Positions 1,314-13,746 of a DNA stretch of 35,256 bases are shown here, piece after piece. The stretch covers positions 1 to 35,256 of the forward strand of contig JAUWXF010000021.1 in NCBI GenBank assembly GCA_030616475.1, in the 5' to 3' direction. Under the pieces are notes generated by a model. That model was not told the DNA's origin. It saw only the letters and a program-made list of their open reading frames with translations, and made no database searches. Position 1 is the stretch's first letter. Each line of letters starts with the position of its first letter. This DNA comes from Desulfobacterales bacterium (GTDB taxonomy: Bacteria; Desulfobacterota; Desulfobacteria; Desulfobacterales; C00003060). The position numbers and the translations under genes were made by a program.

Positions 1314-1332
1314 ATTGGTCATTAGTCATTAG
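1314..1332. repeat. Outer arm of nested hairpin, family I (TTGGTCATTAGTCATTAG)
   Basis: Complementary to CCAATGACCAATGAC at 1658-1688; brackets the family A element. Confidence 0.6.
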
Positions 1333-1347
1333 GCGCTAAGTTCTAAG

Positions 1348-1643
1348 ATTCGTGTTTTTTCTGGCAGAAAATAAATTCGAATATCGAAACCTGCCCGCCA
1401 TTGCCAGAGATGCTAACATGTGAGCTGCACGAAGTACGTGGCGATGGCAGGCGGGTCCGAAACAAATTCGAAATTTTCAAAATTCAAATGACCAAAACAG
1501 TGCACGACCATATCTCAAACAGCTCAAATTCCATGTTTTGAACATTCGAACATTTGTATTTGCGGCTCACGCCTTGAGAACAGTACGGATTTGTTTCGAG
1601 TTTCGAATTTCGTGCTTCGGATTTCCGGTTTATCCGGGTTAGG
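1348..1643 (+). repeat. Family A element A1 (CGAAATC/CGAAAC word hairpin with defined ends)
   Basis: 5' end ATTCGTGTTTTTTCTGGCAGAAAATAAATTCGAATATCGA, 3' end CCGGTTTATCCGGGTTAGG; both ends recur inverted at 25687-25904. Confidence 0.85.
1390..1455 (-). repeat. 66-bp GC-rich palindrome H, copy 1, inverted and nested in A1
   Basis: cctgcccgccattgcca...tggcgatggcaggcggg; reverse complement aligns with copies at 6612, 18072, 30369. Confidence 0.88.
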
Positions 1644-1657
1644 TTGAGATCAACAAC

Positions 1658-1688
1658 CAATGACCAATGACAAGTGACGAATGACAAA
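1658..1688. repeat. Outer right arm of nested hairpin, family I (CCAATGAC words)
   Basis: accaatgaccaatgacaagtgacgaatgaca, complementary to 1314-1332. Confidence 0.6.
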
Positions 1689-1707
1689 TGAGGCAGGAAC
1701 AAGGTTT

Positions 1708-4191: not shown

Positions 4192-4263
4192 TACAACATG
4201 TCGGAAATTGTACAACTTGCTGAACTTATAGCACTTTATTAGCTTGCCTGTAATCTCGAGAAA

Positions 4264-4363
4264 GGAATGATGGAATGATGGAATATTGGAATGATGTAAA
4301 AGATAAAAAGACCAAAATCCTCTTAAACCCATTATTCCACCATTCCATCGTTCCATTATTCCA
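4264..4363 (+). repeat. Family C hairpin copy C1 (GGAATGATGGAAT words)
   Basis: Left arm ggaatgatggaatgatggaatattggaatgatg; right arm cattattccaccattccatcgttccattattcca. Confidence 0.88.
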
Positions 4364-4402
4364 GGCTGTGAGCGGAGCGAACTAAGTTCAAAGGAGGTCA
4401 AT

Positions 4403-5050: not shown

Positions 5051-5143
5051 CTGCGCTTCGCTACGCAATTGGTCGAGTGGTCGAGTAGTTGAGTGGTTCA
5101 AGGACCTTACAACTTGACAACTCGACTATTTAACTACTCGACT
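5049..5143 (+). repeat. Family D hairpin (GTCGAGTGGTCGAG words) with boundary module L at its left end
   Basis: agctgcgcttcgctacgcaattgg|tcgagtggtcgagtagttgagtgg...acttgacaactcgactatttaactactcgac; the left 24 nt recurs inverted at 9487-9510. Confidence 0.8.
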
Positions 5144-5201
5144 AAAGTCGCAGGAATTTCAGCAAGCTGTAGAAATTCCAAGATGTTAGGGGAATCCTGT
5201 C

Positions 5202-5809: not shown

Positions 5810-5864
5810 TGATTGTGGATTGTCGATTGTTTTTCAATCGTCAATCATCAATCGTCAATAGACA
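5799..5864 (+). repeat. Family B hairpin copy B2 (short-centre variant)
   Basis: ttgacgattgatgattgtggattgtcgattg-tttt-tcaatcgtcaatcatcaatcgtcaatagacaat; left arm begins in the last codons of rpmC. Confidence 0.85.
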
Positions 5865-5880
5865 ATCTATAGGATAAGAC

Positions 5881-6522: not shown

Positions 6523-6531
6523 TCTAATGCA

Positions 6532-6829
6532 GGGGGCATTTCCGGATTCTTGTCGGTCCCAGTCATGTCCTGTTTATTGGAGAAATGAGGAAAAAACTCG
6601 AAACTCGAATACCCGCCTGCCAACGCCTGAGACAGCATTCAGCTTATGTGCCGGCATCTCTGGCAATGGCGGGCAGGTCGAAATTCGAAACAATGACCAA
6701 ATTTTCAAAATTCAAATTACCGAAACAAAAAACCCGGAAGCAAATGAGAAGCTATAATAGTTTTGAACATTTGAATTTCGAATTTGTTTCGAATTTCGAA
6801 TTTCGTGCTTCGGATTTATTCAGAACGAG
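6532..6829 (+). repeat. Family A element A2 with 5' module K
   Basis: ggggcatttccggattcttg...attggagaaatgagg then CGAAACTCGAATA...GTTTTGAACATTTGAATTTCGAATTTGTTTCGAATTTCGAATTTCGTGCTTCGGATTTATTCAGAAC; module K and the CGGATTTATTCAGAA end recur in A3. Confidence 0.83.
6612..6677 (+). repeat. 66-bp GC-rich palindrome H, copy 2, nested in the left arm of A2
   Basis: cccgcctgccaacgcc...ctggcaatggcgggcagg. Confidence 0.88.
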
Positions 6830-6865
6830 GTAAGAAGTTGGGAGTGCACCTGTGAGAGGGGCGTT

Positions 6866-7207: not shown

Positions 7208-7489
7208 TGGGGAGCATTTCCGGTTTCTTGCCGACTTCAGCTATGATGTGTTGCTTGGATGGAGAAATGGGAAAATCCGAAATTCGAAATCCGAAGCACG
7301 AAACGAATACAAATGACCAAAGCACAAAATCCTAAACAATATGATTCAAAAAAATCGAACCTTTGCATTTGCAAGAAAGACGATACTGCGTAAAAGTGAA
7401 TAAGGTTTTGAACATTTGATATTTGGATTTGGAATTTGTTTCGGATTTGCGGCTCACGCCTTGAAAACAGTACGGATTTATTCAGAAGG
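7208..7489 (+). repeat. Family A element A3 with 5' module K
   Basis: ggggagcatttccggtttcttgccgac...tggagaaatggg; AAATCCGAAATTCGAAATCCGAAGCACGAAACG...GTTTTGAACATTTGATATTTGGATTTGGAATTTGTTTCGGATTT GCGGCTCACGCCTTGAAAACAGTACGG. Confidence 0.83.
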
Positions 7490-8658: not shown

Positions 8659-8743
8659 ATTTGGATTGATGATTGATGATTGTCGATTGATGCGCATGGG
8701 GCGGAAAAAATCGTCAATCATCAATCGTCAATATTCAATCGTC
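8659..8743 (-). repeat. Family B hairpin copy B3 (centre inverted relative to B1/B4)
   Basis: atttggattgatgattgatgattgtcgattg-atgcgcatggggcggaaaaaa-tcgtcaatcatcaatcgtcaatattcaatcgtc. Confidence 0.83.
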
Positions 8744-9371: not shown

Positions 9372-9490
9372 GGAATGATGGAATAGTGGAATAATGGAAT
9401 GTTGGGAACAAAAGCGGAAAAATCATTGTTTCAATTGTTTTCATTCCTTTTAACCCATTATTCCATCATTCCAATACTCCATTATTCCAA
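9372..9490 (+). repeat. Family C hairpin copy C2 (GGAATGATGGAAT words)
   Basis: ggaatgatggaatagtggaataatggaatg ... cccattattccatcattccaatactccattattccaa; followed by module L. Confidence 0.87.
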
Positions 9491-11024: not shown

Positions 11025-11084
11025 TAGTATAGGAATTTCGATTTTTGGTTAAATTGAAAGAAGTTGTAAACCTGAGACGGGTAA

Positions 11085-11245
11085 TCTGAAATTCGAAATT
11101 CGAAGCGCGAAATCCGAAACAAATTCAAATGACCAAAATACAAAATTCAAAACAATGAAATTGAGGAATTATGAATAATGTTTTGAACATTTGATATTTG
11201 AATTTCGGATTTGTTTCGTGCTTCGATATTCGATATTCGAATTTA
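11085..11245 (+). repeat. Family A element A4
   Basis: tctgaaattcgaaattcgaagcgcgaaatccgaaacaaattcaaatgaccaaaat...gttttgaacatttgatatttgaatttcggatttgtttcgtgcttcgatattcgatattcgaattta. Confidence 0.85.
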
Positions 11246-11286
11246 ACAAGCTAAATACAAGCTTCAAGAAGAATTGATAACTTGAT

Positions 11287-13657: not shown

Positions 13658-13662
13658 AGCCG

Positions 13663-13746
13663 CTATTCGTTATCCGTTACTGGTTATTCGTTATTCGGAC
13701 AACTAATAACGGACAACTAATAACAAATAACAAGTAACGAATAACC
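13663..13746 (+). repeat. Family F hairpin (TTATTCGTTA / TAACGAATAA words)
   Basis: ctattcgttatccgttactggttattcgttattcgg-acaactaataa-cggacaactaataacaaataacaagtaacgaataacc. Confidence 0.83.

Follow-up and report, generated by a model that had tools for sequence, protein, structure and literature searches.

Probable nested insertion of small non-coding hairpin elements in the L3-L4 spacer of a Desulfobacterales ribosomal-protein operon

Nostoc and other cyanobacteria reportedly harbor small dispersed repeats (SDRs; Elhai et al. 2008, Genome Res 18:1484, cited in PMC3116915 and PMC2884548), very short dispersed non-coding elements that are nested among tandem heptamer repeats. MITEs of the DDE type leave a target-site duplication (TSD). 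Small non-autonomous inverted-repeat elements of the MITE kind occur in large numbers in Candidatus Thiomargarita nelsonii (PMC4853749). REP, BIME and REPIN elements, which are associated with TnpA-REP (RAYT), are intergenic palindromes present in hundreds of copies and are thought to move as single-stranded hairpins (PMC8266576, PMC3116915); the foot of a REP, a palindrome of 20-50 nt, bears a conserved tetranucleotide, GTAG or similar (PMC8266576). In a REPtron, REPs flank their cognate Y1 transposase gene. Intergenic heptamers have also been described in Beggiatoaceae, where the single word TAACTGA is directly repeated, in some cases within ribosomal-protein operons (PMC4679880). In the Nostoc trnL intron, the arms of the P6b stem-loop consist of 7-nt repeats (TDNGATT or NNTGAGT), and P6b varies in its number of complete repeats and through insertions forming side stem-loops (PMC4476775).

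We examined a window of 35,256 nt, i.e. the whole stretch of DNA analysed, from a Desulfobacterales draft genome (G000; 3.79 Mb in 360 contigs). It contains the S10/spc ribosomal-protein operon, with L3 at 642-1313 and L4, as a mechanical ORF, at 1681-2331. In the spacer between these two genes, outer arms of heptamer words enclose an element A, which in turn holds a 66-bp hairpin (H) and a 24-bp element (E):

1314-1332, no strand: outer left arm, ATTGGTCATTAGTCATTAG, with the heptamer words (T)TGGTCAT TAGTCAT TAG.
1333-1643, + strand: element A, host of H and E, delimited by matches in its own genome and by comparing the ends of its copies; the left boundary is approximate.
1390-1455, + strand: H, a GC-rich hairpin (CCTGCCCGCCATTGCC...GGCGATGGCAGGCGGG) inserted at CGAAA^TCCG, exact in comparison with H-less copies of A.
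1562-1585, + strand: E, 24 bp, GCGGCTCACGCCTTGAGAACAGTA, inserted at TTT^C in the right half of A; orthologous filled and empty sites for E occur elsewhere.
1657-1688, no strand: outer right arm, CCAATGACCAATGACAAGTGACGAATGAC, with the words CCAATGA CCAATGA CAAGTGA CGAATGA CAAATGA; it overlaps the start of the mechanical ORF at 1681.

The arm words correspond to GTCATTR and its complement. Element A combines a hairpin on the left (TTTTTTCTGGCAGAAAA) with inverted arms built from AATTCGA-type words of ~7 nt; its right end is CCGGTTTATCCGGGTTAGG. An initial annotation had already described the nested arms, A and H, and its coordinates proved correct to a base or two, those of H (1390-1455) exactly so. 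It had placed A at 1348-1643; the right end stands, but the left end probably lies near 1333. The three-level nesting was confirmed as well, although the further piece E (1562-1585) had been missed.

We consider it probable (about 85%) that the spacer is a nest formed by the successive insertion of small non-coding mobile hairpin elements. A hairpin of heptamer words would have come first, between L3 and L4. A would then have entered this word hairpin, and H and E would have entered opposite halves of A. That the outer hairpin existed before A entered it is likely.

Taken singly, the arms and palindromes are only moderately above chance (against shuffled halves, p=0.002 for the outer arms, p<=0.001 for the A arms and p=0.004 for the halves of H). 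Their dispersal, however, is far beyond chance as judged by reversed-pattern controls. The outer word, which repeats at 7-bp steps, occurs 104 times in the G000 genome versus once in the control; the H pattern has 270 matches (259 with a narrower gap) versus 0, and the E pattern 108 versus 0. For A, 69 matches were found in its own genome. A comparison with plasmids and phages found no similar DNA.

Other spacers of the operon carry further elements of the A type:

6530-6845, + strand: second A-type element, in the L14-L24 spacer, carrying an oppositely oriented H; G020 lacks the element.
6612-6677, - strand: the H within this element, 66 bp, with a single placement and no TSD; the orthologous site in G015 is empty.
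7212-7484, + strand: third A-type element, in the L24-L5 spacer, with E and without H.
11026-11280, + strand: fourth A-type element, in the L15-secY spacer, without H and without E.

Five comparisons of filled and empty sites were solved for every insert placement, and each yielded one placement only. These are a 66-bp H in the L22-S3 spacer (filled in G015, empty in G000), the 66-bp H in the L14-L24 A (filled in G000, empty in G015), a 24-bp E in this same A (filled in G015, empty in G000), a 24-bp E upstream of S10 (filled in G005, empty in G020) and the 66-bp insert of the window A relative to an H-less paralog. None of the five inserts is accompanied by a duplication or a deletion. The initial annotation had proposed to look for TSDs at the junctions; for H and E, the TSD is 0 bp at all four orthologous sites. 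The reciprocal difference in H and E within the L14-L24 A is the clearest evidence for sequential insertion. In the absence of a TSD, one site compared between two species fits insertion or perfect excision alike, but H and E are dispersed over unrelated sites, so insertion is required. H and E are dispersed, independent families that insert at exact points with neither duplication nor loss of target sequence.

Among the copies of A, paralogs without H read ...GAATATCGAAATCCGAAAC..., those with H read ...ATCGAAA(66 bp)TCCGAAAC..., and the uninterrupted sequence in the H-less paralogs is ATCGAAATCCGAAAC. When H is excised in silico, the A arm becomes a single longer match and its score rises from 12 to 15; H therefore interrupts a continuous arm. 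Copies of A without H are found among the paralogs and in the orthologous L14-L24 A of G015. The sequential insertion proposed in the initial annotation is supported by the exact inner junctions and by the separate occurrence of the components: each piece is found without the others.

As a second possibility, the initial annotation had named foldback growth. In this model, template switching and slippage of the words would enlarge a seed palindrome towards the outside. The outer arms do consist of heptamer words, orthologous word hairpins in L29-S17 and S10-L3 have unequal word counts, and the short S8-L6 alleles of G005 and G015 retain one word copy. Foldback growth may therefore apply to the outer word arms. 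For H and E it is rejected, since they are dispersed sequences with fixed lengths of 66 and 24 bp and exact junctions, and the A arm is continuous once H is removed. Template switching is not expected to yield constant ends. As an account of the whole nest, foldback growth is very improbable. For S8-L6, we do not claim that the word hairpin grew de novo out of a local seed, since a deletion would explain the short allele equally well.

The L3-L4 spacer itself was compared among relatives. In ten species (G005, G003, G007, G021, G019, G006, G014, G012, G008 and G004), the spacer is short and contains neither outer arms nor A; the stretches in question measure 48-88 bases, ~40 of which are gene ends. 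G020, G017 and G016 have a hairpin built of other words (GGAGTGAT type), although the L4 stretch of G020 is 98% identical to that of G000. The whole spacer of G000 folds more strongly than dinucleotide shuffles (z of -3.0 as RNA and -2.4 as DNA). A strong RNA fold between normally co-transcribed genes could suggest that the S10 operon is controlled by a conserved RNA, an attenuator or an L4-binding leader, whose complexity would be incidental. This seems most improbable, however, given the short spacer in ten species and the different word hairpin in three, the presence of the same elements at dozens of unrelated loci, and an Rfam scan of the window with 0 matches above the gathering score.

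The outer arms at L3-L4 are common to G000, G015 and G009. In G009, they surround an IS-like element in place of A, with the ends GAGACCTTTGCA and TGCAAAGGTCTC and AACC on both sides. Read by joining two contigs across this IS, G009 thus provides the outer arms without A that had been sought at this locus. In G015, the arms enclose A with the same right junction as in G000, but the content of A differs: it carries a distinct H, oppositely oriented and 6 bp away, no E, and, near the place of E, a hairpin of a second family (H3, 63-64 bp) together with a further 24-bp insert. The contents of A thus changed after A was in place. None of the relatives provided a clean orthologous site lacking an L3-L4-type A; the L14-L24 junction ATCTTA^GCGGTG in G020 relates to an A with other ends. 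Where copies of A are compared, TTAG often precedes the left end and the right end is usually GTTAGG. The TTAG may represent a target or a 4-bp duplication.

It is quite possible, at somewhat less than even odds, that H did not enter A at this locus, and that an A already carrying H was copied here or converted the resident A, the nesting having arisen elsewhere. Across copies, the subtype of H tracks its position in A, which shows that A+H composites have multiplied as units. The H at L3-L4 differs in only 1 of 66 bases from the H at the same position in another A copy (L014), so that it may stem from conversion by that copy or from a composite common to both. The G015 ortholog, with shared outer arms and right junction around another H, no E and an H3, speaks against arrival of the finished composite. 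Within the reading of successive insertion, multiplication of composites would follow the insertion of H into A.

Assembly quality has to be considered as well. The genomes compared are drafts or MAG-like, from uncultured organisms, and were used as assemblies; repeats break their contigs or sit at contig ends. Many element copies indeed lie at contig ends, and the L3-L4 spacers of G015 and G009 are each split over two contigs, as might be expected of a metagenome assembly chimera at repeats. There is only a very slim chance that the nest is such a chimera: the spacer lies well inside its 35-kb contig, between intact genes, and its right junction is found again in G015; the L14-L24 and L22-S3 pairs likewise lie within contigs. 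In G015, one contig (C230, L090) reads from L3 into A and then into unrelated sequence, and in another (C103, L089) A precedes L4; this arrangement reflects either a rearrangement via A copies or a misassembly.

Of 89 copies of H, 84 are 66 bp long. G000 has 259 copies, G020 118, and two further relatives 78 and 65; in the remaining 18 species of the genus H is rare or absent, and across 396 genomes of the phylum it is nearly absent. The H-bearing records of the named collection are MAGs of Desulfobacterales or Desulfobacteria, and the isolate names of several start with CSMAG, which probably stands for cold seep. H, whose own first bases are CCTG, also lies within other word hairpins, within further copies of H and amid unrelated sequence; in 19 of 54 sampled contexts, it is inside or directly beside another H. 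Insertion of H into H recurs at AGAGA^TGCC with differing inserted subtypes, and in one A copy (L013) the H holds two further H copies. The 33 distinct target sites have A at position -1 in 24 cases and share no tetranucleotide.

The contexts of E are nearly all TTT^C. They represent few independent sites because E occupies copies of the same A words. E and H differ in their distribution over species (118 H and 5 E in G020, 0 H and 51 E in G003) and thus move independently. Other small hairpins were also noticed. H3 (CCCTGGCCCAGACC...GCGCCAGGGC[AG]GGC) interrupts A as well as word hairpins (L044:1153, L037:931, L116:10572 and others), as does a second 24-bp element, GACACGAAGTGAAGCTTGCGCTAA (L016, L037, L038, L161:6778). 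Three genomes from another family of the phylum (G274, G179 and G356) contain a 66-bp hairpin with the ten bases of H at each end and a different interior (CCTGCCCGCCGAACCTGCC...).

Insertion would occur in trans, through a transposase or endonuclease able to recognise single strands in folded form. The most plausible such enzyme, although we put it at well below even odds, is a Y1 (HUH) transposase related to IS200/IS605 or TnpA-REP; it is proposed because the units are hairpins with fixed ends and preferred targets and without TSDs. Enzymes of these kinds act on single strands and palindromes (PMC8266576). Non-autonomous elements of the IS200/IS605 type lack a TSD, have palindromic ends and insert next to a fixed short target. 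H and E might belong with them: neither has a TSD, but the T^C context of E (45 of 46) comes from few independent sites, and H lies at A^T in 13 of the 33 distinct sites. With A^T at only this share of sites, a Helitron-like A^T insertion was dismissed. PF01797 has 10 matches in G000, where the longer Y1 proteins have open frames of ~330-350 aa. Scanning ~1.5 kb on each side, we found whole H copies near only one Y1 locus, ~370 bp away and on one side, and no Y1 gene in G000 is flanked by its own H copies. Y1 genes are also present in H-free relatives, and the rank correlation between Y1 and H counts (0.44) is gone without the top three genomes. The Y1 transposases were therefore not retained as the mobiliser, their loci not being flanked by elements and the correlation being carried by three genomes. 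We found no autonomous partner for H or E. One Y1_Tnp match lies within an open frame of 1158 aa (G004:C8:5643-5894).

One unit was observed only in G000:

5051-5189, no strand: word-hairpin unit of 139 bp in the S3-L16 spacer, made of TCGAGTGG words, with TTAG on both sides.

In all 8 relatives compared, the S3-L16 spacer measures 12 bp. Word hairpins of 7-8 nt words were also noted at 560-655, 2620-2700, 4262-4365, 5070-5145, 5810-5870, 8660-8734, 9380-9480 and 13660-13720. The words include GCATAGC, GATTGTC, GGAATGAT, TCGAGTGG and TATTCGT, and their presence, the word used and the number of words vary among related species. Between two loci (L116 in G000 C17 and L149 in G020 C435), the genes are 97-98% identical and nearly every spacer holds different small repeats.

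Spacers inside the S10 operon can be replaced almost entirely even where the genes stay nearly the same. This one conserved operon offers base-exact natural filled and empty sites of very small mobile DNAs from several independent families. The spread of REP- or SDR-like hairpins (by which enzyme, as single or double strand, into which target) becomes directly testable. It is conceivable, if speculative and on balance unlikely, that the hairpins of 24, 64 and 66 bp represent an undescribed class of minimal mobile DNA. Its enzyme would place single strands, in folded form, at precise sites and leave no target duplication, would prefer other hairpins and would rebuild almost every spacer between species with ~97% identical genes.

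Among the described systems, REP elements resemble H as intergenic palindromes in hundreds of copies, and Y1 transposase genes are present in the genome. H differs in lacking a GTAG foot tag at its 33 distinct sites, and no transposase gene is flanked by its own copies. H and E are small and numerous like MITEs, but they are single hairpins and have no TSD. Unlike the TAACTGA repeats, the heptamers here comprise many words (GTCATTR in the arms) that are arranged in inverted orientation and interrupted by inserted elements. Nostoc P6b shares arms of 7-nt repeats and the whole-unit variation seen between orthologs in other spacers, a likeness of architecture and not proof of common origin; P6b is part of a group I intron, whereas the hairpins here are free-standing, intergenic and contain several words. 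The nearest whole analogy may be the cyanobacterial SDRs, likewise small elements nested among heptamer repeats. At 24 bp, E falls into their reported size class. This likeness concerns size and arrangement, and the elements seen here belong to another phylum, include longer hairpins (66 bp for H, 63-64 bp for H3), and are nested three or four levels deep inside the S10 operon.
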